Assembly: GCF_029633865.1 (NCBI RefSeq) | Contig: NC_079213.1 | Span: 90,632,429 to 90,696,428, forward strand | Direction of reading: 5' to 3' | DNA length: 64,000 nucleotides | DNA from: Lampris incognitus | Taxonomy: Eukaryota; Chordata; Actinopteri; Lampriformes; Lampridae | In this document: positions 2,116 to 63,018 of the stretch, one piece after another | How the letters are laid out: each line of letters begins with the position of its first letter | Numbering within the stretch: the stretch's first letter is position 1 | Position numbers and translations under genes: made by a program | Notes under the pieces: generated by a model | Database searches by the model: none | What the model was told of the DNA's origin: nothing | What the model saw: the letters and a program-made list of their open reading frames with translations, nothing else

Positions 2116-21483
<19,368 letters not shown>

Positions 21484-24025: not shown

Positions 24026-24441
24026 TTTTTTTTTTTGGACCCCCCCCCACACCTTTTTCTCCCCAATTGTATCCAGCCAATCACCCGGTCACTGCTCCAA
24101 CCCCTCTGCCAATCGGGGAGGGCTGCAGACTCCACATGCCTCCTCCAATACATGTGGACTCGCCAGCCGCTTCTTTTCACCTGACAGTGAGGAGTTTCAC
24201 CAGGGGAACGTAGCGCATGGGAGGCTCATGCTATTCCCCCCCCCCCAACAGGTGTCTCGACCAACCAGAGGAGGCACTAGTGCAGCAACCAGGACGCATA
24301 CCCACATCCAGCTTCCCACCCACAGACACGGCCAATTGTCTGTAGGGACGCCCGACCAAGCCGGAGGTAACATGGGAATTCAAACCGGCGATCCCTGTGT
24401 TGGTAGGCAATGGAATAGACCTCTACACAACCTGGATGCCC
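24026..24441 (-). repeat. tRNA-derived SINE (family A), minus strand
   Basis: The body matches the family A copies. It is flanked by near-identical duplications agaccgactgtcttttt (24009-24025) and agaccaactgtcttttt (24442-24458), a convincing target-site duplication. Confidence 0.88.
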
Positions 24442-25960: not shown

Positions 25961-26308
25961 TCATTGAACTGAGTGACAGCTCCCATCCACAGTGGGCGGG
26001 GTCTTCAGGGTAAATGGTGGCGTGCCATCGGTGGTCACCGTTCCCCCTGGTTCATCCCGGCCCAGGCTAAGCCCCAGCAAGGAGGAGCGTGTGAGCCTGC
26101 GAAGGGTGCCGCTGAAAGACGGGTACAGGGTCATGATGGAGCCCCGGGACCAGTCGAAATTGGGGTAGATGCGCTTGAGTACAGCCCGTCGAAAAAGGAT
26201 GTAGACCCAGGGGTCCAGGATCTGGTTCCACGTAGCGAAGCGAATCCACAGCACAAGGTAACGCTTTTGGAGATAGGTTTCAGACAGCACAGCCTGTGCA
26301 ATAAACAC
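25961..26308 (-). CDS. tbxa2r: tbxa2r terminal coding exon (TM7 and C-tail)
   Basis: The acceptor on the minus strand is ccaccaccag before GTGTTTATTG, giving VFIAQAVLSETY after the LL that ends the first exon. Ser/Thr-rich tail residues such as RRLTRSSLLGLSLG could be phosphorylated. The stop is TGA at 25961-25963. Confidence 0.9.
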   Translation of the reverse strand: MFIAQAVLSETYLQKRYLVLWIRFATWNQILDPWVYILFRRAVLKRIYPNFDWSRGSIMTLYPSFSGTLRRLTRSSLLGLSLGRDEPGGTVTTDGTPPFTLKTPPTVDGSCHSVQ

Positions 26309-26723
26309 CTGGTGGTGGAGAATAAGAGGACAGGAAGGAGGTCACACACACACAGGCATGCACACGCACACACACACACACAGACACACACACGGAACAG
26401 TGGAGGGAGGAAGACGGAGCATTCGCATGAGGGAAGGACAAAGAAGAAATTGAAAAAAAGATTTAAGACATTAATGATAAAACACGAATGGCAAAATTAA
26501 TCATTTAATATCATGATAATATCAATAATTAAAATATTTTTATCAATTAAGTGATAAGAATGATAGATTAATCATGGTACAAAAAAATAACGAGACAAAT
26601 TAAATAGAAAAGATAAAATGATCATGCTTATGGGTGTGCTCGTGCACGCGCACACACACATACACACACATACACACACACACACTGTTATAAGCCATCC
26701 AGGGAGTACAAGGCTTTGTCTCT

Positions 26724-26817
<94 letters not shown>

Positions 26818-29800
26818 AGACAGTGACTTTGGTAACACAATAACAGGTTTTTCTTTGCCTTAGCAAAAAAGCTTCTTATGAGAAGAGGTATTGCTTTATT
26901 TGTCCCTTATTAGCTCTAGCTCAATATTGTGCTGTAGGAGCTATGCACGGTAACAAGCTCCTTTAGAAATGGCAACGTGGCTAATCATTTTTCTCCTCCA
27001 AAAATATGCTAATGTCACAATACCTTCATGTCTCTGGCAGATTTCATGCTGGATGTACAACGCTCAGCATTTTCGGTTTTTACCAATTTTCACCGAAAAA
27101 TACCCTGATTTTTTAAAAGGAGCAGATTGGTTTAAACTGATTTTCACCCGGATTTTATGTTTCCATGGATCCAAAAGTTGTTCCTGTTCGTGTGAGGTTA
27201 TGTAACAGTGTCCTCTTGTGGCGAAATTCGGCATGCTGGATGGCTTTGAAAAATAAAAACCAAAAACGCTGAGCCTTGTGGATGTACAAGTAAATACTCA
27301 CATTAATACAGAGTGCACACCGCTAATACAGGTATTGTATATATGAAAAACTGGTGCATGCAAAAGGCCAGTGTTCCTTGGGCAATGATGTTATCATGTT
27401 TCCAATGAAAAGCCATCTGTATTAGTCAATAGGCATGACATCAGGTGCAGGGGTTATAAACAGACAAGAAAAACATTGCACAAGTGAGTTGTTTATTAGT
27501 AAATTGTTTATCGGCTGCTTGGAGATGGAACGAAACACAAAAAGCAGCAGCAACTTCAACATAGACACAATGGCTGCACCATGACACAAGCTCCAGATGA
27601 GCTACTCATGGGTAATGTAGTTAGTTTGGAAGCTATAAAGTGTGGATGATTCTTTGATGCATAAATGAGTCCATCAGTTTCTTTTTGGCTGATGTTTGAT
27701 ATTGATGATGCTAGCTGGCTAAACACAGCCCAAAGCCATGAGGGAGTGAGCAGTGACTCCGGGGAATGCGCTTATCTTTTTTTAGTTTTTGACTTCGTTT
27801 GGGTCTACTCGCCTTATTCGGGAATTTTGGCACATGATGTATATCCAGGGGTCAAATATCTGATTGCAGGTGGCCATTCGTATGTAGAATACGATACGGA
27901 TGGACTCTACAGTCTCACTGGTCACAGCACTCTTCAGAATATATATCTGTGCAGGACAGCACACACAGGGTTATGCAAAAGCTGTGGGGAAAAAAATCAT
28001 TACTATTGCTATGGCACTTTTGCTCTGCCCCTTGCATTTCATCCCATTAGTTTATTCGGGTGTGTTTAATGCTTGATAGCGAGCTGGAAATTTAAGATTA
28101 GTCTATTGCTGCACTCATTGTAGGGTGCTCTGTGTAAAAGCGCCCTACATTTTACATCCATAATGTGGATGTAAAATGAATGCAAGAATGAAAATTAAAT
28201 TTGAGAACTGTATGAACAAAAAGTAGAATTTGTGAAAATGTAAGGATCCATGTTGTTTTTTAAAGGACTGAGCAATTAACACTAGGCTGCTATAGTTTTT
28301 ATCATTAAATATGGATATGTAACGAAACATAAGTTAACAGCTAGTCCCATAGTGATAACTTGACAAGACAGCTCAAAGGCATCACTAATAATGACTAAAT
28401 ATTGATCTGTATAAAGTCGTGCTTGAAATCCACCAAAATGCTGTGGATTAGATGTGCCAGCTACAGGACTGAATCTAAATGGTGTGGGACAATCCTCTTT
28501 CATATCATGATTATTACCACATTGACCATTTGAAATGACGAAGGATATTTCAGTGATTGCTCACCTCTTCATCAAGACATTAGGAATGATGACGGTGTTG
28601 AGGAGGTAGAAAAAAAGATTAAAGCTGAAAGCTTGAGTCAATATCCAATCCATACTAAGCCACCACCAAGGCCAGATGGGCATTACAGCCCTATTGCTCC
28701 CGTTAGACACTGACCACATGCAAGCGGTTAAGAGCCATACTCTTACCCAAAGCGCAAAACCAAATACCACATCTAAACATCAGATAAAGATCAGTTTATC
28801 AGAATCAGAATAAAGTATTCTGATTCTGATAAACCCCATTCTCTACTTCACCCACCACACCACAAATTGACATCTTTCTTTTTTTTCCCCTTTGGATTCC
28901 CCCCCCCCCCCGAATTGTATTCGGCCAATTACCCCATTCTTCCGAGCTGTCCCAGTCGCTATTCCACCCCCTCTGCTGATCCGGGGAGGGCTGCAGACTA
29001 CCACATGCCTCCTGCGATACATATAGAGTCACCAGCCACTTCTTTTCATCTGAAAGTGAGAAGTTTCACTAGGGGGACGTAGCACGTGGGAAGATCACGC
29101 TACTCCCCCCAGTTCCCCTCCCCCCCGAACAGGTGCCCCGACCAACCAGAGAAGGCGCTAGCGCAGCAACCAGGACAAATACTCCCACATCCGGCATCCC
29201 ACCCGCAGACACGGCCAATTGTGTCTGAAGGGACGCCCGACCAAGCTGGAGGTAACACAGGGATTAGAACTGGCGATCCCCATGTTGTAGGCAATGGAAT
29301 ACACCGCCACGCTACCCAGACGCACACAAATTGCTATCTTTCAATATGAGAAACGAGGCGTGGATACTAAACAATGGTGTTTTATTTAGCTTTGGACCCT
29401 TAAGTGGAGGTTAATAACAAACACCGAAGCTGAGAGAGAGAGAAAAGCAGAAGAAAGTTGGAGAAACAAAAAGGGCCCAATGCTACTGGTCAGCTGAATC
29501 GTATATTTCATATATTACAGTAAGGAGACACCAAAACACCACACAACGCCACAAGCATATATAGTTAGTGTCGGTGTTCACGGTGCGAATCAAACCCCTT
29601 ATTCTTTCAGTATTACCGCCTTTTTCCCTTACATTTATCCATGCAGGACTGTAACATTGAACTGGTGAAGCAAATACAGTAAATGTCTTTGGGTGGATAA
29701 TTTTATCAAACACACAACAGGCTGACATAATTACATATTCTTTAATGTGGTATATCATATTTTGAATAAGAAGTTCACTGAAGAGAGATGTTGAGATAAA

Positions 29801-31715
29801 TGCTAAATCTAAGTTGTTGGACACTTTAAGCGGCACCTTATAGTATAAAGAGTGTGCAAATAATTAATATATACTTTACACTGTAGCCGTTTATATTCTG
29901 AAGTCAAAATCTATGTGACACAAATTGAATTGCAGGGAGAATGAAAGAGAGACCCAGATAGATAGAGGAAAATGAAGGGCAGGGTTGGGGTCTGGAGCGG
30001 ATATCCCCCTTCTGTCTGTAGCCTGAGATGGCCCACTCTCACATACTTTAAGCCTTATCACCCCACAACACACAAACACACACACATAAACATTCACACT
30101 GGCAGAAACAGGGCCAAAAGTGCTTCCTGAACAGTGCTAGCTCATGGCTTTACAAAGTAACAGCACCCTACTTCTTCCATGGCTTTCTAAAAAAAACCAC
30201 AAAAAAACCCCCATCAGCTCAGGGGCCATTCTGAAGAAAGGTGATCACAGTGGCAAAACTTTTAATAACGTTATCATAGGATTTCAGTGACCAGAGATAA
30301 CGGTCTATAAAAATCATATTATAAATATATATTAACAACAAATAATTCATGTATAATTAATATATTATTAATTATATTATATAAATTATTATATAATGAA
30401 ACGTATTATATAAATTAATTATTAATATAGTCAACGTATAATTAATAATAAATACATAAATAAATATAATGAACAATAAATAAGATAACTAACTAATAAA
30501 TATATAAGTATATACTACAACTTTTGGCTGCTCCTGTTAGAGGTTGCCACAGGGGATCATCCGTTTCCATCTCTTCCTGTCCTCTAATGCAGTTACTAAT
30601 TACTTTAATTACTTCTAATGCAGAAGATAGAATAATTTTTTGCCTTTACTAAGTGTTGGTGAAATGTCCATTGTAAACAACAATAAATGAATCAGTGACA
30701 ACAGACCCCTGAAATCTGGACTAACCAGCATGTGAAAATACACTAAGAAACTCTTGGCAAACTCTTTCAAAGCTGCACACACATTTCGTCACTACAGACA
30801 ATACATTTATACACACATCAATGGGAAACTGCTTCTTATTATAGTTGTATTATATCCCTGTAAAAGCGAACCCTATACATGTACATTTGCACATAAAAGA
30901 AACAGGGCACTCACCAGCAGGGGGCACCAGCAGATAGAGGCAATCACCATTATCAGGATGAGCTGCACCATCATCTCCACTTCGTGGTCACGGCGGCGCT
31001 GCATCCTATCTTGCCCACAGCACACTTTGACCAAAGTCACCACGCTCACCGTGTTTAGCACAAAAGACACAGCAACAGAGAACAGCCCGACCAGTGAGAA
31101 AATGATAGAGAACACCAGGTCAGTGCCCAGAGAGCTAATGTTGAGGAAACACCAGGAGCCTGGTGACTGGAGGTGGTAGCTGCCTACACCAATGAGGGGC
31201 AACAGAGCCACGCTGCCAGCAAATGTCCACACCATCAGCACCATGGACAATGCCCGGCTCTTGGGTGCACTGGCAGAGCGCTCAAAGGGCCGGTTGATGC
31301 CCACAAAGCGTTCCACGGCCATGGCGGCACCAAGCAGCAGTGGGCACAGGCCATAGAAGACCATGGACATTCCCATGAAGTTGCAGAAGTGGCATCCTGG
31401 GTCCAGGTGGCGCCAGTTGAACTGGGTGGCGTAGAAGGATATGACAATGCATCCTGTGACCAGGAGTCCCATGAAGTCGGTGACCACCAGGCCGCACAGA
31501 AAGATGAGGAAAGAGGAGCGCCAGCGGCTGTGTGTGCGCTTATAGGACTGCAGTAACACTAAAAAGGCGATGAAGTTGGAGGTGAGGCCCAGAGCCGTGA
31601 AGACAGATGGGAAGATGACTGAGGGGATGGTGTGGTTGGACTTGAAAGGGGGGCTGTTGATGGAGAAGCAGAATGGGACGGTCTTGTTGGCGAGATGGGA
31701 GACGGAAACATTCAT
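25961..31715 (-). CDS. tbxa2r: Thromboxane A2 receptor, prostanoid GPCR
   Basis: Seven-transmembrane receptor for thromboxane A2/prostaglandin H2 at the cell surface, normally coupled to Gq and G12/13. Two coding exons, 30915-31715 (267 codons, N terminus to the end of TM6) and 25961-26308 (115 codons, TM7 and tail), join in phase 0 across a GT-AG intron, giving 382 residues; human TP is 343. The start ATG 31713-31715 has a good CCACC context. The N terminus has glycosylation sequons (NVS, NKT, NHT). Diagnostic features are SSFLIFLCGLVVTDFMGLLV (TM2), PGC before TM3, AVERFVGINRPF in place of DRY, the prostanoid loop-2 motif GSWCFL, and IRFATWNQILDPWVYILF in TM7 with the ligand-binding Arg and DPxxY. 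The match to TP is closer than to EP or FP receptors. The neighbour gipc3 supports the name. The intron also holds a second TM7 exon. Confidence 0.9.
26346..26395. repeat. Impure (CA)n tract
   Basis: CA repeat within the tbxa2r intron, close to the terminal exon acceptor. A second CA tract lies at 26650-26686. Confidence 0.85.
26396..27781. other. tbxa2r intron, unassigned sequence
   Basis: No genes. A minus-strand AATAAA lies at 27492-27497, about 290 bases past the stop of the alternative TM7 exon. Confidence 0.45.
26730..26816. repeat. (TC)n microsatellite
   Basis: Pure TC tract of about 87 bases in the tbxa2r intron. Confidence 0.97.
27782..27946 (-). CDS. Candidate alternative terminal exon of tbxa2r
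   Basis: Inside the tbxa2r intron, the minus strand encodes 54 residues and a stop that resemble the receptor's TM7 exon: FYIRMATCNQIFDPWIYI against LWIRFATWNQILDPWVYI. The conserved Arg that contacts the prostanoid carboxylate and the DPxxY motif are kept. A usable acceptor (gctgtcctgcacag) precedes ATATAT and is in phase 0 with the first exon's donor, so splicing would give a receptor of about 321 residues with a short basic tail. An AATAAA lies about 290 bases downstream. A stronger-looking acceptor 35 bases upstream (ttttttccccacag) would run into stops. It could instead be the relic of a tandemly duplicated receptor whose first exon was lost. The Trp-to-Cys change in TM7 is odd. Confidence 0.5.
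   Translation of the reverse strand: MYILKSAVTSETVESIRIVFYIRMATCNQIFDPWIYIMCQNSRIRRVDPNEVKN
27947..28793. other. tbxa2r intron, unassigned sequence
   Basis: AT-rich. A small perfect hairpin with 13-bp arms (cattttacatcca and its complement) occurs near 28148-28178. No gene is seen. Confidence 0.45.
28794..28834. repeat. Perfect 19-bp hairpin
   Basis: Arms 28794-28812 and 28816-28834 are exact reverse complements (gtttatcagaatcagaata) with a 3-base loop. Confidence 0.9.
28879..29324 (-). repeat. tRNA-derived SINE (family A), minus strand
   Basis: Full body of family A in the tbxa2r intron. It is flanked by 18-base duplications differing at two positions: cacaaattgacatctttc (28861-28878) and cacaaattgctatctttc (29325-29342). 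Confidence 0.88.
29343..30520. other. tbxa2r intron, AT-rich
   Basis: No gene. The part 30300-30510 is extremely AT-rich (ATTA/TATA-like low-complexity sequence). Confidence 0.45.
30521..30592 (-). repeat. RTE-type LINE 3'-end fragment
   Basis: The 72 bases ('ttggctgctcctgttagagg' onwards) are the diverged reverse complement of the 3' end of the intact LINE at 59888-63018 (last codons plus the gggagcagccgaaag tail). This is a severely 5'-truncated copy or a SINE sharing that tail. Confidence 0.75.
30915..31715 (-). CDS. tbxa2r: tbxa2r first coding exon (TM1-TM6)
   Basis: It starts at the ATG in context ccaccATGa and ends CTGCTG before the donor gtgagt (30909-30914 on the complement). It contains TM1 to TM6. 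The intron position at the end of TM6 is the one shared by prostanoid receptors. Confidence 0.92.
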
Positions 31716-36886: not shown

Positions 36887-37558
36887 TTTTGTGGTTACAC
36901 CGCCGCGAGCTGCCTCCCCGGCACGTTCAAGCCACTCCCCCAGCTCGGACGTGCCGGAAACATCCGAGCGCTCGGCTCGCGCTCTGAGACGAGCGCTGCA
37001 CTGCACCAGGTGTTTGCCATCATCCATCAGGCACACCTGTGGCAATCAGGCAGCCTTCTACAAAAAGCCTCCCAGAACGTCTCTCAGTGCTTCGACGTAT
37101 TGAACCCTGCGACTCTCCCTCCGCGATTTCCACGGCTCCCCGCGTCTCCAGCGACCTTCACGTTTCTCCCCGGACCTCTGCTGCGATCTCCCCCCTTGTC
37201 CCTCTACCTGGACCCCTCCTTTCGGACTCGACTTCCCGGATCTCGGACCTGGACTTTCTCGGACAACCCCTCTTGGATCACGGACTGGACTTTCTCGCCA
37301 GGTGCACGCACATTTCGTCAACACCTCCTGGTCATTTACATACCGCACCACACATTGGCTAAAAACACTCACACAGTTATACACGCAAACCACGGGACAC
37401 CACACAGTTTATTCACACATCCCACTAACAGAACGCCCTTTTTCACCATACATTTCCCTCCCACAATAAAACCCCCCTTTGTAGACTTAGAAGTCATCTC
37501 GTGTCTGTCTGTCTTGGGTTTCGCCACACGGGTCAGGTTCTGGTGCGCGAGCATAACA
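36887..37558 (+). repeat. 5' LTR of first gypsy element
   Basis: 672 bases. A TATA-like tacaaaaa sits at 37059-37066, and the predicted RNA start is GCTTCGACGT at 37089. The 3' copy differs by scattered substitutions and a few small indels. Confidence 0.9.
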
Positions 37559-37560
37559 GA

Positions 37561-37570
37561 ACGTCGAAGC
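37561..37570 (+). promoter_or_regulatory. Predicted self-priming primer-binding site
   Basis: ACGTCGAAGC, two bases after the 5' LTR, is the exact reverse complement of GCTTCGACGT at 37089-37098 in the LTR, about 30 bases after a TATA-like box. This is the arrangement used by self-primed Tf1-type elements; no tRNA-type TGG site is present. Confidence 0.6.
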
Positions 37571-37574
37571 CATT

Positions 37575-39227
37575 ATGGACCCAGGCAAACCCAAGGAGCG
37601 GACGGTCCCTGTGACGCCCCTGAGCCCCGTCCCCCTAGAGGCAGTAGTAAGAAGTCACAGTTGCCAACTTGCCTCTCTCTGCTCAGAGCTTACTACTGCC
37701 TTCACCCGTGTCACCGGAGAGATCAGCGATCTTCAGTCCGGCTCCCAGGCCGCGACGAGCACGTTAGATGCCCTCACCGCGCAGATCGCTGCACTCTCCA
37801 CAGCGGTCTCCAGGATGAGCGACCACCCTGCCCTGGCCTCCGGTTTCCCCGTTCCTGGTCCCGACGTTCCCCCTCCGAGTCAACCCCCACTGGACCCCCG
37901 GTGCGAGCCTAACCTCCCCTGCCCCAAGGCCTTCGGTGGGGAGTTCGAGCTGTGCAGGGGTTTCCTTGGTCAGTGTGAGCTCCTGTTCAAACACCAGCCA
38001 GCTAGGTATAGGACAGGAGAGACCAAGGTAGCCCTTGTCATGTCCCTCCTCACCGGCAAAGCCCTCAGCTGGGCCATAGCGGCGGTAGGCCATACCGAGC
38101 AGCTCGCCTCGGACTATGGTGCCTTCCGCCGCGAGTTCAATCTGGTGTTCGACCACCCAGCTGACGGGCAGGACGCTGCCGGCCGCCTCCATTCCATCCA
38201 ACAGGGAGCCAGGTCGGTGGCAGAGTATTCCCTGGAGGTAAGGATACTCGCGGCAGACAGTGGGTGGGATGACACTGCGCTCAAGAGCGCGTACAGGAGG
38301 GGGCTGAGCGAGCCCATCAAAGATCTTATCGTTCGGGACCGCCCTGCCTCCTTCAACGAGCTCGTCACCCTCGCCCTCCAGGTGGACGAACGGCTGCGGG
38401 AGCGGCGCCAGGAACGCGCCCCGCGCGCTGGCCCCTCCCATAGACCAACCCCCGTCCGTCCTACCGGTGCCTTCCCTGGGTCAGCGTCCCGTGGGCTCTC
38501 TCCACCCTCACACTCCCCCTCGCAACCCTGGGTGGCTTCTGGATCCAGGCCGGAGGAGGAGCCCATGCAGTTGGGTCGGTCACGGCTCCCGCTGGAAGTT
38601 AGGGAGCAGAGGATGCATGGCCACCTCTGCCTCTACTGCGGGAGGTCGGGCCACTATATCAAGGCCTGCCCGACTCGCCCAAAAAGACCCGGCTCACTAG
38701 TGAGGGGTGTCCTAGTGAGTCTGACGACCCTTCCTCAGCCCCAGCCCAAGAAGGAGCACAACCACCTTTTTCCGGTCACTCTCACCTGGGGTAACCGCTC
38801 ACTGTCTGTTGGTGCACTCCTGGATTCGGGGGCGGACGAGTGTTTGATGGACACCTCGCTGGCCCGGCAGGCCGGCATTCCACTCGTCCCCCTAGACACA
38901 CCCCTCACAGCCCAAGCCCTAGATGGACGTTCACTTGGTAAAATCACACACAGCACTGCTTCCCTCACCCTCACTCTTTCGGGTAATCACGTGGAAGCTA
39001 TCCGTTTCTTGGTTTTGCGCGCCCCTGGTGTTAGGAAGACCGTGGTTGGAACGGCACGATCCCTACATCTCTTGGTCTACTGGGCGGATTTTGGGTTGGA
39101 GCGTTGCGTGTCATGCCAACTGCCTTCGCTCCGCCCACTCCCCGTCCAGCGGCCTCAGACCCGTGCCTCCTCCCACGGATCTCACTGGTGTTCCTTCCAT
39201 TTATCACGATTTAGCCCCTGTATTTAG
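37575..39227 (+). pseudogene. gypsy gag and protease
   Basis: The open frame starts 16 bases after the LTR. It contains a capsid-like region (CRGFLGQCELLFKHQP, GRLHSIQQGARSVAEY), a single zinc knuckle CLYCGRSGHYIKAC at about residue 350, and a retropepsin core LLDSGADECLMD near residue 415. Around 39020-39035 the protease-to-RT sequence continues in another frame, so a one-base indel, or less likely programmed frameshifting, ends this frame early. It is part of an old retroelement copy and not a host gene. Confidence 0.85.
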
Positions 39228-40965
39228 TAAAGAGAGTGCACTTTCCCTCCCCCCTCACCGTCCCTATGATTGTGCCATAGATCTCTTTCCCGGGGCCGCC
39301 CTTCCCACCGGTCGGTTGTATAACCTCTCCGTCCCAGAGAAGGAGGCTATGCGCAATTATATCAGAGTCCCTGGCCTCAGGAATCATAAGGCCCTCGTCT
39401 TCCCCGGTGGCGGCGGGCTTCTTTTTTGTGGCAAAGAAGGAGGGCAGCCTGAGGCCTTGCATAGATTATCGAATGTTAATATCATGGTGAAAAATAAATA
39501 CCCACTCCCCCTTATGAGTTCCACGTTCGAGCCACTCACTCACGCCACGGTGTTCACGAAGCTGGACCTGCGCAGCGCGTACCACCTGGTGCGCATCCGG
39601 GAAGGGGATGAATGGAAGACGGCCTACAACACCCACCTAGGGCATTTCGAGTACCTCGTTATGCCCTTCGGCCTCACCAACGCCCCGGCCGTCTTCCAGG
39701 CATTGGTCAACGACGTGCTCCGGGACATGCTGAACACGTTCGCGGTGGTGTACCTGGATGACATACTCGTGTTCTCCAGGACTGAGGAGGAACACCACCA
39801 GCATGTCCGCCTGGTCCTCCAACGGCTGCTGGAGAACAGGCTCTTCGTGAAAGCCGAGAAGTGCGTGTTCCACTCCGCCTCCGTGGAGTTCCTTGGCCAC
39901 ATCGTGGAGAAGGGGCTCGTCCGCACTGACCCCAGGAAGACCCGAGCGGTGGAGTGGGCACGGCCCACCAACAGGACGCAACTCCAGCGCTTCCTGGGGT
40001 TTGCAAACTTCTACCGGCGCTTCATCAGGGGGTTCAGCCGTGTGGCCGCCCCCCTCACTGCACTCACCTCCAACCTCCGCCCCTTCTCCTGGACCTCGGT
40101 GGCGGAAGCCGCCTTCTTGGCCCTGAAGAGGCTGTTCACAACGGCTCCGGTGCTCGCCCACCCGGACCCGTGCAGACAGTTCATCGTGGAGGTGGACGCA
40201 TCGGACACGGGCATCGGAGCCGTCCTCTCCCAGCGGTCGGAGGAGGACCAGAAGATCCACCCGTGCGCCTTCTCCCGGCGTTTCAGTCCTGCGGAGAAGA
40301 ATTATGACATCGGCAACAGGGAGTTGCTGGCCGTCCACGCCGCCCTAGAGGAGTGGAGACACTGGCTGGAGGGAGCAGGGCAGCCGTTCATCGTATGGTC
40401 CGATCACAAAAACCTGACCTACGTACGGACGGCTAAGAGGCTCAACCCCAGGCAGGCGCGCTGGGCTCTCTTCTTCAGCCGGTTCGACTTCACCCTCACC
40501 TACCGCCCGGGCACCAAGAACGTCAGGGCAGACGCCCTCTCCCGTCTGTTTCCCGAGGGGTCCCCTGACGCCCCAGACACCATCCTTCCCCCGGCCCGGG
40601 TGGTGGGCGCCGTCACCTGGGCCATCGAATCAGTGGTAAGGGCCCAGCGCGCCCATCCCGACCCAGGCAATGGACCCCGGAACCGGCTATTTGTGCCTCC
40701 CTCTGTCCGGCCCCAGGTGCTGGAGTGGGGCCGCCCCAGGTGCTGGAGTGGGGCCACTCCAGCCATCTTGCCTGCCACCCCGGTGTCTACCGAACGGCGG
40801 CCTTCATCCGCAGGGGTTTCTGGTGGCCCACCATGGAGGCAGACACCAGAGAGTTCGTGGCAGCCTGCGCCCGCAGCAAGGCTCTCCATCGCCCTCCAGC
40901 AGGTCTCCTGCGCCCCCTTCCTGTCCCCGGCCGACCTTGGTCCCACATTGCCTTGGACTTTGTAA
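39020..40965 (+). pseudogene. gypsy reverse transcriptase and RNase H
   Basis: Follows gag-protease in a shifted frame. It contains the RT palm with [31 protein letters not shown] and the active site [11 protein letters not shown] (about 39745), then RNase H with [16 protein letters not shown] (about 40190) and SDHKNLTYV. Between about 39366 and 39475 the family-like reading is in a different frame, so two compensating indels flank this piece. After the 23-bp duplication near 40740 the frame is lost and ends at 40965. Confidence 0.88.
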
Positions 40966-42242
40966 CTGGCCTCCCCGTGTCCCAAGGCAATGACACCATC
41001 CTGACCATTGTCGACCGGTTTTCCAAGGCCGTCCATTTTGTTGCCCTCACCAAACTCCCCTCTGCAGCCGAGACGGCTGACCTTCTCGTCTCCCACGTCG
41101 TCCGACCTCATGGGATTCCCCTGGACATTGTCTCTGACCGTGGTCCCCAGTTCACTTCGAAGGTATGGCAGGCCTTCTGTAAGGGGATTGGGGCCACGGT
41201 CAGCCTCTCCTCCGGGTATCACCCCCAGACCAATGGGCAGGCAGAGCGGGCCAATCAAGCCCTGGAGGCGGCTTTGCGTTGCGTTACCACCAGCAACCCC
41301 GCCTCCTGGAGCAAGTACCTGCCCTGGGTGGAATACTCGCTCAACTCCATGGAGAGTTCGGCTACCGGTTTGTCCCCCTTCGAGTGTTCCCTGGGCTATC
41401 AACCCCCTCTGTTCCCCCATCAGGAGTTGGAGGTAGCGGTCACGTCCACGAGGGCCCATCTCCGCCGATGCCGGCGCGTTTGGAAGACCGCCCGGGCCGC
41501 TATGTTGCGAGCTACAGAGCGGGCCCGGCGCAGCGCCAACCGGCGGAGAGTGCCGGCCCCAGCTTATCGACCTGGCCAGAGGGTATGGCTCCTGGCCCGG
41601 GACCTGCCCCTCCCTACCCTCAACCGGAAGCTGGCTCCCCGCTACGTCGGTCCCTACACCATCGACCGCATCGTCAACCCTTCGGTGGTGCGTCTCCATC
41701 TCCCTACCTCACTCAAGATCCATCCCGTCTTCCATGTCTTGCGCCTCAAACCGGTAGCCACCAGCCCCCTGTCTCCCCCTGTCCAAGCTCCTCCACCCCC
41801 CAGGGTCCTCGACGGTGGTGACATGGTCTGGGATGTCGACCAGCTGCTCGCCGTACGCCGCCGGGGGCGTGGGTACCAATACCTGGTAGACTGGGTTGGC
41901 TATGGGCCCGAGGACCGCAGCTGGGTTCCCCGGTCCTACCTGGCCGACCCCGCACTCCTGGAGGAGTTCTATCGGGCCAACGCCATCGGACGGTCGCCCG
42001 GTGTCTCCCGTAGGAGGGGGGGTCCTGTTGTGGTTACACCGCCCCGAGCTGCCTCCCCGGCACGTTCAAGCCACTCCCCCAGCTCGGACGTGCCGGAAAC
42101 ATCCGAGCGCTCGGCTCGCGCTCTGAGACGAGCGCTGCACTGCACCAGGTGTTTGCCATCATCCATCAGGCACACCTGTGGCAATCAGGCAGCCTTCTAC
42201 AAAAAGCCTCCCAGAACGTCTCTCAGTGCTTCGACGTATTGA
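40725..42242 (+). pseudogene. gypsy integrase with chromodomain
   Basis: The reading resumes after the 23-bp duplication. It contains an integrase zinc-binding segment, catalytic core parts ([40 protein letters not shown]) and a C-terminal chromodomain ([20 protein letters not shown] and the following WVPRSYL) at about 41820-41960. The frame runs on past the polypurine tract into the 3' LTR and stops at 42242. Confidence 0.88.
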
Positions 42243-43423: not shown

Positions 43424-46400
43424 TCATATCATAGTCTGCCAGCCTCGATGGCAAGCGTGTCTCTCTCTTGGAGGCCTGTCTGCCCCCGGGGTGTCATTGC
43501 TGGTGTTGCTCCGCTCTGCGTTTTGAGCACCCAGTGTCTCTCTGTTTGATGTGCAGTCCTCGGCATCCTGTGATGCTTCTGCTCCGGCAGGTGTCTCCTG
43601 AGTACTGGTGTATCGCTTCACGAATGTTGTGTTCCGTGTGTATCTGGCTCCGGTTGGAGATTCGACGACAACTTGGTTTCCTGATTTGCTCACCACCTTG
43701 TGTGGCGTTGTGTTGAATAGTGTTGTCAGTTTATCAGTCTTTTCTTGTCTCACCAGGACCGTGTCACCGACACTGACATCCGAGTACCTGGCGTGATGCC
43801 GTTCGTCTGCACAGATCTTTGATTGTCCTTTCTGTTCTGCGTCTCTGTCTCTTACCTCCAGATCAGCGTGTGCTGCTGTGATGCTTGGCAGCTTCCCCCT
43901 CATCTTTCTTTTGAAGAGCAACTCCGCGGGACTCTTCCCTGTGGTCGCGTGATCGATGCTCCGGTATACTGTCACATACTTTCTAAGTTCTCGCTTCCAA
44001 TTGAGTCCATCTGAAACAGCGATGCGAATCCTCTTCATCAGCGAGGCGTTTTGACGTTCTTCCTCACCGTTCGCCTGCGCCCATCGTGGCGTTGTTTTCA
44101 CATGCTTGATTCCGTTGGTGTCACAGTACTCACTGAACTCCTCTGATTTGAACTGAGGACCCTGGTCCGACCTCAGTGTGACGGGAAGTCCATGTCGACT
44201 GAAGATTGTCTCTAGACTGTCTATCACTGTTGACGTGGTTGTGGACTTTAACACGTCATACTCATAGTAGCGGCTGTAGTAATCAACTACAACTAGAATC
44301 GAGTCACCTGTCGGCAGGGGTCCGAGTAAGTCAATGGCAATATCTTGCCAGGGCCCCTCTGGTAACTCTGTTGGTCTTAACGGTTCCGGTGCGTCTGGCC
44401 GAGCAACAACTTGGCATCCGTGGCATGACCTACAATGTCTCTCGGCTGCTCTGTCCATTGTTGGCCACCAGACTTTGCTCCTGAGGTGCTGTTTAGTTCC
44501 GACCATTCCTAAGTGTCCTTCGTGTGCTAGTGAGAGAGCGCGTGCCCGCAGTACTTGTGGCAGCACAATACGCGTTCCACGTAGACCCAACTGTCCTATT
44601 ACACATAACTCACTAGCCACCGCAGCATATGCTGCGCACTTCTCAAAGTGTCCACTCTCAATAGCTTTACGCACCTCGATCAGCTCCTCGTCGTGGGCTG
44701 ATGCCTCCTCCACCTCGCGGGTTGTCAATGCTCTGGGTGTGGCACTCACTGCAACAAATCTCACATACTCGTCGGATCCGTGTGCATGTTTCTGTTTCAG
44801 TGCGCTGTTCCCCAGCAGACGTGATAGTGGGTCTGCTATGTTCTTTTTGCCCGAGATATGTACTACTTTAAAATCATAAGGCTGTAACCTTAGGACCCGT
44901 CGCTCTATACGAGCGCATGGTTTCGAGCGTGGGCTGTAGATAGATTCAAGAGGTTTGTGGTCTGTAACCAAGTCAAATCGTCTACCATAGATGTATGGGT
45001 GTAACCTTTCACACGCCCATACCAGACCTAAGGCCTCTTTCTCTGTCTGAGAATACCTGCGTTCACAGTCGGTTGGACCACGACTGACATAACAAATGGG
45101 AACATTTTCTCCATTCTGGGTCTGTACTAACACTGCTCCTAATCCCACTGGACTAGCATCTGCAATGATTTTGGTCGGTGCATCTTTGTTAAAGTAGGCT
45201 AGTGTTCCTGCTTTGGCTAAGCCCTCTTTCAGCGCCTCAAACGCTTGTTTCTGTTCTGGACCGAATTCAAACGGAGTGTCTTTTATCTTGGCCTCCACAG
45301 GCGCCCGTAGGTTGAAGGGTATACGCCTGAGTGGCTGTGCTACTGGTGTCACCTCTGGGTCTATGTGTAGCTTTATCTGTTTTGTTTTCAGCTTCCCTAC
45401 CCCCTGAAATACAGTCGGGTACTGCTGCTGAAGTGATCGGTTCATGTCTCTGACGGCTGATATGTTGGCACCTATTTTCAGTACACCTAGTTTCATGGCC
45501 AACTCTTTTCCTAGTAGTGGTTCTCCATCACCTCTGATTACTATGAATTCTGCTTGTTCACAGCGTTCTCCTATTTTTACTTTGCATGTGAACGCCCCTT
45601 TAATGGGTAGAGGTTGGTTAGATGAATAAGAAAATAGTTTCCTTTCCGGCTTTGGGACATATGAGTGGCACCTAATTTTCTCTGACTTTAAACCCTCCCA
45701 GGTCTTTTCGTCTATCACATTGCAAGTAACCCCGGAGTCGACAAGCATCTTCAAGCTAACTCCTCCCACATTTATGTTGAGCCTATCTGACTTGTTTGTA
45801 TCACTCAATACAAAGGCATAATCATGTTCTTCCAACTCTATTTTATGCACTTTTTCCTTTCCTGTTGCACCTTTTGTTTTGCATTGCTTTGCGAAATGGT
45901 CTCTACCATTGCATTTGCGACACGTTTGGCCGCGCGCTGGACAATTGGGGTCTTTCCCAAAGTGGTCTGAATGTCCACATCTAAAACACGTTTTGTCCAT
46001 TTTGTCCGTTTTTCCTCTATCCGCGCCCGGTCTCCCTTGTCCTCTCTCCTGATATTTCCCTCCTTTCTGTGAGACACGACTCACAGTCGCCTCTGCTTTC
46101 CCCTCCCTCACAGACATCTCCGCCATTTGTTCTTCAATTTGTTCACACTGTGCCGCCAACTCGAGAGCACGAGCAAGCACCAAACCACGCTCCTCAAGGA
46201 GTCTACGGCGAGTATAACTTGACGTGCATTTGCTTACAATTGCGTCTCTAATCTGATCGTCTGTGTCTCCACCAAAACCGCAGTCTTTTGCCGCACGTCT
46301 CAAGCGTGTAGCGAATTGTTGTACTGTCTCCCCTTGATTCTGAGAGATTTTCTGAAATGTCTGGCGGGCGAATGTAGCATTTACTTGAGGCACTAAATAT

Positions 46401-46669
46401 CTGTTCAAAGCTGCAACAGCGGCATCATAATCAGTCACCTCTCCGGTGCCGTCCAAAGTTGAAAAGATGTCCTGTGTGTCTGGACCTGCGTGATGCAGAA
46501 GAAGTGCTCTCCGGCGCTGCTTCACTGCATCCTCGGTGTTATCATCGATGATCAGACCTTTCCCATCAGCAAACAGTTCAAATGACATTAGCCATCTTGT
46601 CCACCGCGGCCCCAAAGTCGCCGGGTCGGAGTAGCAATAAAACGCCGGTACGCATGCTGTCTTTTCCAT
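43424..46669 (-). CDS. gypsy Gag-protease-RNase H-integrase ORF, RT deleted
   Basis: An uninterrupted 1081-codon frame. In order: gag with two zinc knuckles (CFRCGHSDHFGKDPNC and CRKCNGRDHFAKQC, about residues 230-265), retropepsin LVDSGVTCNVID (about 310), the start of pol (PVAQPLRRIPFNLRAPVEAK, about 445-460), then directly FGPEQKQAFEALKEGL and RNase H IIADASPVGLGAVL (about 503). Integrase follows with its HHCC finger (HEGHLGMVGTKQH...CRSCHGC, about 715) and DDE core (LRSDQGPQFKSEEF, about 835). The RT fingers and palm with the xxDD box are absent, and the deletion is in frame (junction near 45280). It has no chromodomain. Whether it is translated is unknown. This is a retroelement, not a host gene. 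Confidence 0.88.
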   Translation of the reverse strand: MEKTACVPAFYCYSDPATLGPRWTRWLMSFELFADGKGLIIDDNTEDAVKQRRRALLLHHAGPDTQDIFSTLDGTGEVTDYDAAVAALNRYLVPQVNATFARQTFQKISQNQGETVQQFATRLRRAAKDCGFGGDTDDQIRDAIVSKCTSSYTRRRLLEERGLVLARALELAAQCEQIEEQMAEMSVREGKAEATVSRVSQKGGKYQERGQGRPGADRGKTDKMDKTCFRCGHSDHFGKDPNCPARGQTCRKCNGRDHFAKQCKTKGATGKEKVHKIELEEHDYAFVLSDTNKSDRLNINVGGVSLKMLVDSGVTCNVIDEKTWEGLKSEKIRCHSYVPKPERKLFSYSSNQPLPIKGAFTCKVKIGERCEQAEFIVIRGDGEPLLGKELAMKLGVLKIGANISAVRDMNRSLQQQYPTVFQGVGKLKTKQIKLHIDPEVTPVAQPLRRIPFNLRAPVEAKIKDTPFEFGPEQKQAFEALKEGLAKAGTLAYFNKDAPTKIIADASPVGLGAVLVQTQNGENVPICYVSRGPTDCERRYSQTEKEALGLVWACERLHPYIYGRRFDLVTDHKPLESIYSPRSKPCARIERRVLRLQPYDFKVVHISGKKNIADPLSRLLGNSALKQKHAHGSDEYVRFVAVSATPRALTTREVEEASAHDEELIEVRKAIESGHFEKCAAYAAVASELCVIGQLGLRGTRIVLPQVLRARALSLAHEGHLGMVGTKQHLRSKVWWPTMDRAAERHCRSCHGCQVVARPDAPEPLRPTELPEGPWQDIAIDLLGPLPTGDSILVVVDYYSRYYEYDVLKSTTTSTVIDSLETIFSRHGLPVTLRSDQGPQFKSEEFSEYCDTNGIKHVKTTPRWAQANGEEERQNASLMKRIRIAVSDGLNWKRELRKYVTVYRSIDHATTGKSPAELLFKRKMRGKLPSITAAHADLEVRDRDAEQKGQSKICADERHHARYSDVSVGDTVLVRQEKTDKLTTLFNTTPHKVVSKSGNQVVVESPTGARYTRNTTFVKRYTSTQETPAGAEASQDAEDCTSNRETLGAQNAERSNTSNDTPGADRPPRERHACHRGWQTMI

Positions 46670-46777
46670 GCTGCCGCGCTAGCTAGCTACAACTGTTAGC
46701 TACACTTCAGATCTAACTAAACGTTACGAACTTTAGCTCATCACTTAGCTTAGGCTCGGTACATCACTCGTCGCCAT

Positions 46778-54553: not shown

Positions 54554-55318
54554 TAGGTGGCTGCATTATATTGAGGAAAGTTATCGCGTTGTCTGTTTTA
54601 GCTGTGAAAGCAGTGGAGAAACGTTTCATCAATGAACATAGTGTGTAAGGTTTGACAGTAGTTTTGTCAAGGGAGGCTTCACAAACTGGCGGAAAGCCAT
54701 AGAAAATTCAACGAGCATGAAAAGTCTAAACTTAATAGTGTAACAATAGTGATGCCATTTTAAAAAAATCGCTGCTCTACAAAACACCCCAATTACTTCC
54801 CTTTTATCTGACGCTGCCCGCCAAACTCAAGACACAGCAAGGCATGTTTTGGAGCTGATGTTCAGGTCAGTGCTCTTCTTGGGAAAGAAGGGGGGTGGCT
54901 TTTCGGGGTGGCAGCACCCGTGATGGCATTTTGTATGAACTGATGCTTGAACGTACCTACAACCCCCCAGGAGAGAGACAGTGGATGGAGAGTAGAAATA
55001 ACTGGCTCTCGGACACAATCCAGAATGAAGTCATTCAACAGTGTGCCTGCGCTATTCAACGTGAGATTGTATCCCGTGCCAGAAATAGTCCGTACTATGG
55101 ACTCACAGCTGATGGTACCACCGACTCCAGTGCAATAGAACAGTTCTCATTGACGCTGCAGTATGTGGATGAGAAATTGGAGATTCACTCTGAATTCATT
55201 GGATTTTACAATGCCCCCGACAGCAGCGGAGAGACCCTGTTCAAGTGCATCAACGATGTATTTCTCAGGCTGAACATCCCAGTTGAGCGTCTCCATGGAT
55301 ATTGTTTTGATGGAGCCT

Positions 55319-55326
55319 CTAACATG
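55319..55326. other. Left 8-bp target duplication of MITE
   Basis: CTAACATG, repeated exactly at 56514-56521. Confidence 0.92.
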
Positions 55327-55439
55327 CAGTGGCACCCCCAGAAAATTTTCACAGGGGTGGCCAAATGGGGCCACTTAAAATCTTGGGGTGGCAAACCAAA
55401 GCCAAAAGCCATGACTGAATTTCAGGAATTCTATTATGC

Positions 55440-55590
55440 TGTTCCTGCCCTGTGATGGCATGGCGGCCTACCCAGGGTGTCTCCTGGCCTGCCGCCCATG
55501 CAATGATTGCTGGGATAAGCTCCAGCATCCCCGCGACCCTGAGAGCAGGATGAGCAGTTTGGATAATGGATGGATGGATGTTGTAGTATA
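55440..55590 (+). repeat. SINE tail inside the MITE
   Basis: Matches the 3' half of the SINE at 12924-13299 (gggataagctccagcatccc and the GGATGGATG end). Confidence 0.7.
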
Positions 55591-55810
55591 CTGTATAGGC
55601 TAGTTGAAAACTGTCAATATGAGAGTTAAGGAATCGCATACTGAAATACTTTGGTTTCTTATTTTTTTACGGTTAATGTTACTAAATATCTGATGTGCAT
55701 AGACTAATACCAGTACAGTCAACATTTCGAGCTCCACAACAATTCTGTTTTAATGTGTTATGTATCTGTACATATTGTAAGGTGTTAGACGATTCATTGT
55801 TATATTGTGT

Positions 55811-56190
55811 ATGTCCAAAAATGAAAAACAAAACAAAAAAGCATAATCATGGTCAACAATATACATTTAATTATAGCCTACTCACAACCTATTCATATCC
55901 CTGCTCTATTAGGCTACATTAATTTCAATACAGCTTTATTCACCTGTTGCTGTGTTTCGTGTAAACAAATATGTTATAGGCTATGTCCAAAAATGAAAAA
56001 CAAAACAAAAAAAGCATTATCATAGACAATGTACATTTTACTATAGCGTACTCACAACCTATTCATATCACTACTTTATTAGGTTACATTCTTTTCAACA
56101 CAGCTTTATTCACCCATTGGTGTCTTTTTGTAAACAAACATATTATAGGCTATGTCCAAAAATGAAAAACAAAACAAAAATAAAAAAACA
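55811..56190 (+). repeat. Tandem repeat, period 169-172 bases, 2.2 copies
   Basis: The phrase atgtccaaaaatgaaaaaca recurs at 55811, 55983 and 56152. Two full units and a partial third lie in the MITE. Confidence 0.9.
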
Positions 56191-56513
56191 AAGCTAGAAA
56201 CAGAAGCTGCTCAGCTGCTGTCAGAGGCAGACTGTGCACGAGGGAAGGAGTGTGACGCAGTGACGGATGATCAAAAGCGGCTGACTGCCTGGCTGTGAAT
56301 TTGTTATTTTCTTTGACATGAATTATTATGACAAATATACATTATTGATTTCAATGAACAGCACCTAATGTAAAATATCAGATAGAAGCATATTATGCAT
56401 AATCAGAAGCATATTCTGCATATGCGACTCGTGGCTGGGGGGCCAGCAGGGGGGCCAGGGATAGTATCAGGGTGGCCGTGGCCACCCCTGGCCACCCCTT
56501 GGGGGCGCCACTG

Positions 56514-56521
56514 CTAACATG
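56514..56521. other. Right 8-bp target duplication of MITE
   Basis: CTAACATG, identical to 55319-55326. Confidence 0.92.
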
Positions 56522-57796
56522 TCAGGACGGTTTTCGGGTGTTCAGGCGCAGCTAAAAGAAACATGCCCTGAGTCCCTTTTCGTCCACTGTGCCAACCATT
56601 CACTTGACCTAGTTCTTTAGGAGGCTGCGCGTGAGGTGGGTCTCATCGCTGATTCAGTGAACTTTGTTCAGGGTTTGGCTGTGGTAATCCGTAAATCAGC
56701 AAAACACAAGGAGCTCTATGAGTCCATGTTTGGCTGCAATGAGATAGTTACCATACTGGCCATATGTCCAACAAGATGGTGCATACGAACAATAGCTATC
56801 AAATGTGTGTGTAGTGCCTACAGAGAAATCATCAAAACACTGGAGCAGCTTAAGGATGACAAAAGTGTGAGGGGAGAGACAAGAGCTAAGATCGGAGGCC
56901 TGCTCAACCAAGCAATGAAGGCTAAAACTTACTTTGGCCTCCTCTGCTGTGAAGCAATATTTGAGCCGTGCGTGTCGGTGGCCAGGACTTTGCAGCATAC
57001 CAAAGCCAGTGCACTGGGCACCCTTGAGTGGGCCGAACTGCTTGGAAGGCGCATGGAGGCCCTTCGGGATGATACAGTGGTGGATAACATGCTACAACAA
57101 ACTGTATCCACAGCAGGACTTAAAATGCCAGGTGAGCACAGGGTGACAAAAATCCCAGCCTGCTATCGACACACAGCAGAGCCAGAGGCAGTCGCACAAG
57201 TTGTGCAACACTTGTGGAGATGAGAGTTCTGTGAAGCTGTGGACTCGGTCACAGCAGAAGTAAATAGGAGATTTGATCAAGATGGTATGAAAACAGCAGC
57301 TCTCAGAGAAAATGTGCTTATTAAGGCAGCCTACAAGGAACAAATAGTGGATATAGATTCCCATCACCTTCCCTTGCACTTTGACAAAGCCCGACTGAAG
57401 ATCCAGCTGAAAATGATGGGAGACCTCTGCAGTGATTCTCCAAAAACATTAAAAGACATCGCAACAACCATGTCTGAACTCCACCCACAAACAAGAGCTC
57501 TTTTCAATCAAGTTGAAAACCTCATCAAACTCTGCCTAAGTCTCCTCATCTCAGCTGCTTCATCGGAGAGGACATTTTCCGCTCTCCGCCGTCTGAAGAC
57601 ATGGTTATGCTCAACTATGGTTCAAAAAAGACTGACCCACCTTGCTCTGATGCATGTTCATGGAGATATATTGGACAGTTTGGACATTGATGCCCTCATG
57701 AGGGACTTTATCATTGCCAACCCGGAGAGAAAGGCCACATTTGGAGTTCTGCATGCAGGCCGGCCGTAAGGCAAGACAATTATATATTTCTTGATT

Positions 57797-62800: not shown

Positions 62801-63018
62801 GGAGGAGAGATGTTGAGTATATTGGGAGAAGGATGCTTAATATGGAGCTGCCAGGGAAGAGGAGAAGAGGAAGGCCAAAGAAGAGGTTTACGGATGTGGT
62901 AAGGGAAGACATGCAGGTGGCTGGTGTGACAGAGGAAGACGCAGAAGACAGGAAGAAATGGAAAGGGATGATCCGCTGTGGCGACCCCTAACGGGAGCAG
63001 CCGAAAGTAGTAGTAGTA
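59888..63018 (+). mobile_element. Full-length RTE-type LINE
   Basis: 3131 bases from taacccagccactgaggatg to a (TAG)n tail, with an exact 17-bp target duplication. It has one ORF, a short 5' leader (including tgcgtcaggaagggcatccg) and a minimal 3' end (gggagcagccgaaag). The perfect duplication and intact ORF indicate a recent insertion. Confidence 0.92.
60007..62991 (+). CDS. RTE-type LINE endonuclease-reverse transcriptase
   Basis: An uninterrupted 994-codon protein able, in principle, to nick DNA and prime reverse transcription there. The N-terminal AP-type endonuclease (residues about 60-300) shows RVGTLNFGTM, VQETRWKG, VIGADFNGHVG and RQHRMVV, which supply the expected Asn, Glu, Asp/Asn and His. 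The RT (about 500-800) has LVPIFKNKGDVQNCNNYRGI, FVDLEKAYDRVPREE, GLHQGSALSPFLFAMVMD and the active site MMFADDIVI, with FADD in place of YADD as is common in this group. The C terminus holds RRWLEHVWRR-like (LRWLEHVWRR) and GRPKKRFTDVVRED motifs. There is no separate ORF1. The start is the first ATG of the open frame, 119 bases into the element. Clade assignment to RTE rests on EN-RT layout and the 3' tail. Confidence 0.9.
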   Translation: MRTINKTYIPDRSRPGLPTTATGTVNQQGVGGNYATVGRRRRRGGKHVQRQLERRKGRHVEVRVGTLNFGTMTGKGRELADMMERRKVAILCVQETRWKGSKARSIGGGFKLFYHGVNGRRNGVGVILKEEYVKSVLEVKRVSNRVMSMKLEIEGLLLNVISPYAPQVGCEMDEKEEFWSELDDMVERVPKEERVVIGADFNGHVGEGNRGDEEVMGRYGVKKRNVEGQMVVDFAKRLEMAVVNTYFKKREEHRVTYKSGGKCTQVDYILCRRRHLKGIGDCKVVTGENVARQHRMVVCRMTLETKKRKRVKTQLKIKWWKLKKEDCCVEFRQELRQALGGSEELPDGWTTTAEIVRETARKVLGVSSGQRKEDKETWWWNEEVQQNIQRKRLAKKKWDSKRDEESRQEYKEMQRKANRVVAKAKEKAYGELYDRLDTKEGEKDLYRLARQRDQAAKDVQQVRAIKDRDGNVLTSEESVLRRWKEYFEGLMNEENERERRLDDVGIVNQEVQRISKEEVMKRMKSRKAVGPDDIPVEAWRCLGEMAVEFLTRLFNTILESERVPEEWRRSILVPIFKNKGDVQNCNNYRGIKLISHSMKIWERVIEARLRGEVMISEQQYGFMPRKSTTDAMFALRMLIEKYREGQKELHCVFVDLEKAYDRVPREEVWYCMRKSGVAEKYVGVVQDTYEGSVTMVRCAVGMTDGFKVEVGLHQGSALSPFLFAMVMDRLTDKIRQESPWTMMFADDIVICSESRVQVEESLERWRYALERRGMKVSRSKTEYLCVNEREDSGMVRMQGVEVTKAFEFKYLGSTIQSNRECSRGVKKRVQAGWSGWRSVSGVICDRRVSARVKGKVYKMVVRPAMLYGLETVALTKRQEAELEVAELKMLRFSLGVTKKDRIRNDYIRGTAQVGRFGDKAREARLRWLEHVWRRDVEYIGRRMLNMELPGKRRRGRPKKRFTDVVREDMQVAGVTEEDAEDRKKWKGMIRCGDP

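Follow-up and report, generated by a model that had tools for sequence, protein, structure and literature searches.

An alternative exon for the seventh transmembrane helix probably gives fishes a second kind of thromboxane A2 receptor

The window analysed here (64,000 nucleotides of the opah, Lampris incognitus, contig NC_079213.1, positions 90,632,429 to 90,696,428, from a genome assembly of 1.48 Gb designated G000:C3) carries on its minus strand a gene that, on its whole sequence, is identified as tbxa2r, coding for the thromboxane A2 (TP) receptor, thromboxane being a signal in blood clotting. Between the two known coding exons of this gene, a further segment (27946..27813; positions are counted from the first letter of the window) encodes a second version of transmembrane helix 7 (TM7) and the start of helix 8. 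We consider it quite probable that this segment is a functional alternative exon of tbxa2r, tandem-duplicated before the eels split from the other teleosts sampled, which can be skipped, joined to the canonical last exon in frame +1, or used as a terminal exon. A more far-reaching proposal, to which we give an even chance, is that since before the eel split one gene would have served as two thromboxane receptors, with an exon bearing a GC donor switching both TM7 and the frame of the last exon, the last exon being selected in two frames for a palmitoylated helix 8, and the second receptor binding the same ligands with a remodelled lipid/cholesterol face where ligands enter, at TM1-TM7.

Anatomy and origin of the alternative exon in opah

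The identity of the locus was borne out by comparison with solved structures, the best match of the canonical product in the PDB being human TP (E 9.8e-99). This product joins the first coding exon (exon A, with a Pfam 7tm_1 match at E 6.2e-26) to the last one and is 382 aa in length; over the searched residues 262-382 it matches, without a single difference, the L. incognitus thromboxane A2 receptor available in the database (P0058, 382 aa).

A first-pass annotation of the same DNA, made from the letters alone, had placed in the intron a minus-strand TM7-type exon at 27946..27782 having an acceptor in phase with the upstream donor and an AATAAA about 290 bases after the stop. All of these elements were found (Table 1): the acceptor AG lies in phase 0 with the donor of exon A, and both the alternative and the canonical junction preserve the reading frame. 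The pyrimidine share of the 20-base tract is 65% at the alternative acceptor versus 80% at the canonical one. Absent from that annotation were a GC-type 5' splice site within the segment (boundary 27813/27812) and the open frame +1 of the canonical last exon. When cut at the GC site, the exon ends with ...CQNSRI plus the AG of a split Arg codon, and its length equals that of the matching start of the canonical last exon; from the exon start through DPxxY and nine further residues, 45 residues are counted in both exons.

A simple weight matrix for 5' splice sites gives the GC donor a score of 8.40, the maximum being 8.69. The next best GT or GC site in 27946..27400 scores 1.34, and among the 215 GC dinucleotides present in 30914..25961 only the one at 27813/27812 scores this high. 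As far as the opah sequence goes, both a terminal form making use of the AATAAA (predicted receptor of 321 aa) and a frame +1 form making use of the GC donor (predicted receptor of 370 aa, the same length as the Centroberyx protein P0009) are possible. Two other candidates were rejected: in-phase use of a second acceptor at 27983-27982 gives 15 codons and a stop, without TM7, and splicing from donor B into frame +2 was ruled out in opah by a stop after 8 codons.

At the protein level, the alternative and canonical last exons align with 22 of 49 columns identical, 65% similar and one gap (BLAST, E 2e-13), and the best PDB match of the alternative exon is again human TP (E 9.6e-7), followed by FP, EP3 and EP1. 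When the two exons were compared codon by codon in a core of 18, first positions coincided in 14, second positions in 17 and third positions in only 6; third positions are thus scrambled with first and second ones kept, a coding signature which indicates that the protein has been preserved. Searching the opah genome with the alternative exon gave, among the best candidates scored, two matches at E <= 0.001, namely the exon itself and the canonical exon. No remnant of TM1-6 was found with exon A in the intron or in the window flanks (tblastn, best E 0.22 and 0.05). An origin by insertion from another prostanoid receptor was ruled out by TP being the closest PDB match and by the length being equal to that of the TP exon part. 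Judged by sequence, the alternative exon arose when the beginning of the last coding exon of tbxa2r was duplicated in tandem.

Distribution among teleosts

Two protein searches, performed with the opah exon and with a loach relative as queries, returned 56 different teleost TP proteins bearing the alternative exon, from 54 named species and one unnamed assembly; the loach query drew partly on a frame +1 tail and was therefore biased toward such tails, which the opah query was not. The bearers include eel, a salmonid, pike, cypriniforms, characins, catfishes, Polymixia, Centroberyx and many percomorphs, and most of the proteins had been named by automatic annotation as an isoform of the thromboxane A2 receptor. 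They support the suggestion, already made in the first-pass annotation, that TM7 of the receptor differs when an alternative exon is used. Across the 54 named species the exon is open and motif-preserving, and on these sequences it appears to be an old exon in use in other teleosts, not a relic; opah presumably transcribes and uses it as well.

When 23 alternative exons were placed in one tree with 22 canonical ones, among them those of gar and bowfin, the alternative exons occupied one side of a branch with 100/100 support, in an alignment of 45 columns only after trimming and with an over-long Conger row. The alternative exon was not returned for gar, bowfin or tetrapods in the protein searches, their DNA not having been searched. 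In what follows, counts for the alternative exon refer to 57 sequences (the 56 teleost proteins plus opah), and those for canonical proteins to 119, that is, the best 120 of 406 matches minus P0131, which was left out as having no TM7 anchor.

Splice classes and reading of the last exon in two frames

The 56 proteins were assigned to three classes (37, 8 and 11 members) by the pattern of their tails. In the largest one (37/56), the exon ends with ...SRLR, or a near variant of it, and a tail of the type [C/S]LLHKLCC... comes next, which corresponds to the canonical last exon in frame +1, the alternative exon being internal. Eight proteins have a different tail, which looks like frame +2, and the other 11 are read-through forms (...LRRVK...) with a stop close by. 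What the first-pass annotation envisaged, a short-tailed receptor ending in an alternative last exon, agrees with these 11 proteins, and was too narrow a description for the 37 with a frame +1 tail and the eight with another one.

When alternative and canonical proteins of the same species were paired, a single DNA sequence yielded the canonical frame 0 together with the entire frame +1 tail, stop included, in nine of ten pairs; in the tenth, from Channa, the two frames agree for 34 of 73 residues and then depart. A pair not drawn from one species, combining an alternative protein of Anguilla anguilla with a canonical one of A. rostrata, fitted fully and was kept, whereas the comparison of Salvelinus with three other salmonids (49, 11 and 7 of 57 residues fitting) was excluded from the statistics. 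The two Myxocyprinus proteins are on contigs of different size, maybe representing two gene copies, yet they fit. Frame +2 was tested in two members of the class of eight, with 43/43 residues fitting in Sander and 19/50 in Scomber scombrus. From these comparisons, the last exon appears to be read in two frames in the database proteins of other teleosts.

As to S. scombrus, the 'receptor-like' alternative protein P0002 and the canonical P0074 have no common DNA sequence over the 50 residues compared; this species may have two tbxa2r copies. The contigs of P0002 and P0074 are equally long.

A predicted protein of 425 aa (P0025), located on an assembled contig of 2369 bases, combines exon A with the alternative exon and a frame +1 tail. 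Since these parts span 5.7 kb in opah, P0025 was taken for a transcript, and is presumably transcript-derived. In addition, the proteins give information on the donor itself. In the read-through ...L-R-R-V..., an Arg codon would begin with what is the intron's second base, which must then be C or A and never T. Scatophagus argus has both the read-through form (P0017, ...LRRV) and the spliced one (P0027, ...LRSLL), so that its intron would start with GC or GA, not with GT, and be spliced; use of a GC (or GA) donor in Scatophagus is thus deduced from its two protein sequences. GC donors are described as enriched among alternatively spliced genes (PMC2490688).

Fixation of silent sites in the overlap

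The codons of the overlap were obtained for 12 species, by deduction from protein pairs in 11 and by direct reading in opah. Canonical codons 2-8 are TTT ATT GCA CAR ACT GTG CTG, with little variation at the third positions of codons 2, 3, 6, 7 and 8, and elsewhere in the overlap Phe, Ile and Thr favour TTC, ATC and ACC. The Ile and Thr codons at positions 3 and 6 end in T in 17/17 cases versus 3/30 elsewhere in the overlap (Fisher 4e-10; one species per lineage, nine lineages), and codons 3, 6, 7 and 8 carry the modal base in 34 of 35 cases versus a simulated mean of 20.2 (0 of 200,000 simulations as high; 42/44 upon adding codon 2); these statistics take the lineages, which are not independent, as if they were, and rely on codons that were deduced from proteins. 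The silent sites at the helix-8 codons are unusually fixed, and the fixed third bases of codons 3, 6, 7 and 8 are the second positions of the frame +1 Leu, Leu, Cys and Cys.

As a control, the first eight codons of eight paralogous last exons of opah were used, with starts set by eye at the AG and with loci L011, L014 and L015 left out. In these exons Ile is ATT in one of eight cases, a frame +1 stop occurs within nine codons in seven of the eight, and none of them encodes CLLxxLCC. Phe is TTT in 6/7 cases in the control too, and TTT at codon 2 was consequently dropped as evidence for frame +1. Of the loci left out, L011 (G000:C3:100402186-100402293 in the opah genome) is an EP3-like TM7 segment for which, unlike for the eight control paralogues, an acceptor was not seen near the usual site within 130 bases upstream; its intron position may differ.

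Residues of the alternative TM7 and predicted helix 8

Roles of TM7 residues were assigned after the description of human TP (PMC13039517); the agonist contacts given there for TM7 are L7.36, R7.40 and T7.43. The opah alternative TM7, IVFYIRMATCNQIFDPWIY, has R7.40, T7.43, N7.45, Q7.46, D7.49-P7.50 and Y7.53, with V at 7.36. Among the 57 alternative sequences, R7.40, N7.45, Q7.46, D7.49, P7.50 and Y7.53 are invariant, in keeping with the first-pass argument that retention of the Arg and of DPxxY is not a matter of chance, while L7.36 and T7.43 are each present in 53; position 7.39 is Ile or Leu, as in canonical exons. Because ligand-contact and switch residues of TM7 are kept, the product would still bind prostanoids and signal, and would differ in its membrane/cholesterol face, coupling and internalisation.

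The Trp 7.44 of human TP is not kept, being Cys in 45/57 and Trp in 2/57 alternative sequences; as canonical teleost proteins have Trp in only 84/119, this residue is not family-defining. A TM7 point mutation studied by Funk et al. in 1993 (listed among the references of PMC1298286) reportedly separates agonist from antagonist binding in human TP; it would be that of Trp299 (7.44). Four TM7 positions, 7.37, 7.41, 7.44 and 7.48, are described as lining a cholesterol-filled cavity in agonist-bound human TP (PMC13039517). At each of them, the majority residue of the teleost alternative exons is not that of the canonical ones, with Phe in place of Leu, Met in place of Phe, Cys in place of Trp and Phe in place of Leu, respectively, and with Cys at 7.48 in 13/57 alternative sequences. 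The chance of finding all four among 7 or 8 changed positions of 19 is 0.009 or 0.018, in a post hoc test and considering that outward helix faces vary more anyway.

Frame +1 begins with the end of helix 8, CLLxxLCC. Of the 37 frame +1 tails, all but one have a Cys at Tyr7.53+16 or +17 (20 of them at both), compared with 0/119 canonical tails having a Cys anywhere at Tyr7.53+10 to +20. The palmitoylated Cys pair of rhodopsin has the same spacing. The frame +1 cysteines are predicted to be palmitoylated. The AlphaFold model of Centroberyx P0009, whose best solved match is human TP-miniGq (9gg5), shows TM7 at 282-308 and a short helix at 311-320 ending at the two cysteines, with a low predicted local distance difference test score (about 50) in helix 8 that counts against relying on it. 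In the model of the canonical opah receptor, helix 8 is at 309-314. The most likely product of the alternative exon would be a second form of the TP receptor, its lipid face changed and its helix 8 open to palmitoylation.

A further residue concerns both isoforms, as it lies in exon A: His2.65 (human TP His89) is not kept in opah, which has Tyr at the aligned site. His2.65 is described as unique to TP, and H89Y/F as abolishing the activity of human TP (PMC13039517). Fish TP proteins have 130 His, 29 Tyr and 8 Arg at this site (167 of 176 with a match), and some teleosts may hold the ligand carboxylate differently.

Features of the locus and its surroundings

Table 1. Features of the opah tbxa2r locus (positions in the window)
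Feature	Position	Strand	Remarks
tbxa2r coding exon A	31715..30915	minus	267 codons, from start Met to CPLL in TM6; common to all isoforms
5' splice site of exon A (GTGAGT)	30914..30909	minus	phase 0, after CPLL
AG of 3' splice site, alternative TM7 exon	27948..27947	minus	
Alternative TM7 exon as cassette	27946..27813	minus	134 nt; TM7 and start of helix 8
GC-type 5' splice site (AAG/GCGAGT)	27812..27807	minus	boundary 27813/27812
Same exon read through as terminal exon	27946..27782	minus	54 codons and TAA; IYILKSAV...NQIFDPWIYIMCQNSRIRRVDPNEVKN
AATAAA, candidate polyadenylation signal for the terminal form	27497..27492	minus	284 bases past the stop
AG acceptor of canonical last exon	26310..26309	minus	one site serving both frames
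Canonical last exon, frame 0	26308..25961	minus	115 codons; TM7, helix 8 and tail
Canonical last exon, frame +1	26308..26131	minus	58 open codons, CLLHRLCCLKPISK...STGPGAPS, then stop at 26133-26131

Between the alternative and the canonical last exon lie a (TC/GA) tract of 88 bases (26729..26816) and shorter (CA/TG) tracts at 26672..26685 and 26343..26382, the latter shortly upstream of the canonical acceptor; they might have a bearing on which exon is chosen. The window also holds four copies, 82-84% alike, of a repeat of about 340-470 bp (28880..29345, 3636..4029, 18062..18458 and 24084..24421), the first of these copies preceding the alternative exon within the tbxa2r intron. By eye its start resembles a tRNA-derived short interspersed nuclear element; a tRNA was not found in it by ARAGORN. 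Long open frames at 37557..42242, 43424..46678, 59929..62991, 54859..57769 and 63344..63907 resemble mobile elements, the likenesses (gag-pol-like, LINE-like for long interspersed nuclear elements, hAT-like and Tc1-like) having been judged by eye.

Alternative explanations

A functional alternative exon has to be weighed against other explanations of the same data, and several observations weigh against it; for one, the opah database entry P0058 is the canonical protein, with a name that has no isoform suffix. The segment could be a relic, either a decaying duplicate exon or the remnant of a tandem prostanoid receptor, as the first-pass annotation had also proposed, strung into isoform models by gene predictors. 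In this sense, the alternative exon changes faster than the canonical one (mean identity of 0.61 versus 0.79 in 11 matched lineages), that of opah being among the more divergent ones. Such a relic is nevertheless hardly credible, and was discarded, given an exon that is intact and motif-preserving in as many as 54 named teleost species, the scrambling of third positions with first and second ones kept, the transcript-like contig of P0025 and a TM1-6 remnant not found in the window. Inclusion of the exon could otherwise be a form of unproductive regulatory splicing: transcripts would be diverted to a non-functional or retained protein, no working receptor in its own right, with canonical TP being reduced or dominantly inhibited as a result. 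This we regard as improbable: it would agree with the GC donor, with 3' outcomes that differ among species and with the six-TM splice form of human FP, described as functionally inactive (PMC3477067), but a frame +1 stop located in the last exon would not be expected to elicit nonsense-mediated decay, and an off-switch would need neither R7.40 and the switch residues in 57/57 sequences nor the helix-8 Cys in 36/37 tails.

Less improbable than these, while still unlikely in our opinion, is that the fixed silent sites are exonic splicing signals, with a real alternative exon, as in the first half of our own interpretation, and a frame +1 tail that is a by-product of it. Splicing motifs near the acceptor are a possible cause of the fixation, as the fixed sites lie within 24 nt of it and Phe TTT is favoured near the acceptor of the opah paralogues too. 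Furthermore, other codons of the canonical last exon are fixed as well, at the third positions of codons 13, 17, 28-31 and 36-37 (codons 28-37 together 0.82), so that silent-site conservation is not confined to helix 8, which slightly lowered our confidence in the interpretation we favour, and the fixed sites outside it are inseparable here from codon preference or a wider constraint. Also against our own interpretation, 19 of the 56 proteins are without a frame +1 tail, and some frame +1 tails (P0015, P0030) stop directly after the first Cys. On the other hand, two points speak against splicing signals: the fixed third bases coincide with the second positions of the frame +1 Leu, Leu, Cys and Cys, and in the paralogous last exons a frame +1 stop occurs within 9 codons in 7/8 and ATT is the codon of only 1/8 Ile.

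Proposed mechanism and relation to known systems

According to the functional alternative exon that we favour, early teleosts would have gained a second TM7 when the first part of the last coding exon was duplicated in tandem. Skipping of the exon would give the ordinary TP receptor, while its inclusion would swap TM7 and the first half of helix 8. With the GC donor spliced to the last exon, frame +1 would complete helix 8 and bring in one or two cysteines; with the GC donor ignored, the transcript would end in the exon and the receptor would have a short tail. The GC donor probably makes the joining to the last exon inefficient, allowing the three outcomes to coexist. The second receptor probably binds the same prostanoids, with differences expected in membrane environment, G-protein coupling and internalisation, comparable to those that set palmitoylated human TP-beta apart from TP-alpha.

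The alternative isoforms are already present in public annotation, and are kin to splice isoforms of G protein-coupled receptors (GPCRs), to tandem duplicated exons and to dual-coding exons. Human TBXA2R is likewise one gene giving two receptors, TP-alpha and TP-beta, of which only TP-beta is described as having palmitoylated C-terminal cysteines, with palmitoylation affecting Gq coupling and internalisation (PMC2680975). The two human forms are reported to share residues 1-328, and to differ in the tail with an identical TM7 (PMC13039517), whereas the teleost exon would swap TM7 and helix 8 and put the last exon in another frame. Splice forms of FP (PMC3477067) and C-tail variants of EP3 (PMC7509579) are further spliced prostanoid receptors; as described in these sources, hFPs is a six-TM form and the EP3 isoforms are identical across the seven TM helices, while in teleost TP a homologous helix takes the place of TM7. 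Tandem duplicated exon substitutions, mostly ancient events according to PMC9741552, similarly involve duplicated exons and isoforms differing in a homologous segment; unlike in mutually exclusive exons, the commonest teleost form joins both copies, the downstream one being read out of frame. One stretch of DNA used in more than one frame is also described for XL-alpha-s/Alex, the PLEKHM2 frameshift and SRD5A1 (PMC2329644, PMC12551717, PMC13352861). In teleost tbxa2r, unlike in those cases, it is a frame-shifting cassette exon, bearing a GC donor, that would set the frame, and the two products would be tails of one GPCR. A fish TP receptor with a second TM7 was not found in the titles or abstract starts of the open-licence papers listed for fish TP isoforms (20 of 2,145 in one search) and for TM7-altering or duplicated GPCR exons.

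Fishes therefore probably make a second kind of thromboxane receptor. If this is true, they have a TP receptor form that lies outside the mammal-based pharmacology of TP, and offer a natural helix swap in a GPCR, in which ligand-facing residues can be told apart from lipid-facing ones, as well as an ancient example, among vertebrates, of selection on a single exon in two frames by way of a frame-shifting cassette. In thrombocyte, vascular and immune work on fish, targeting of the last exon of tbxa2r may affect one isoform or both.

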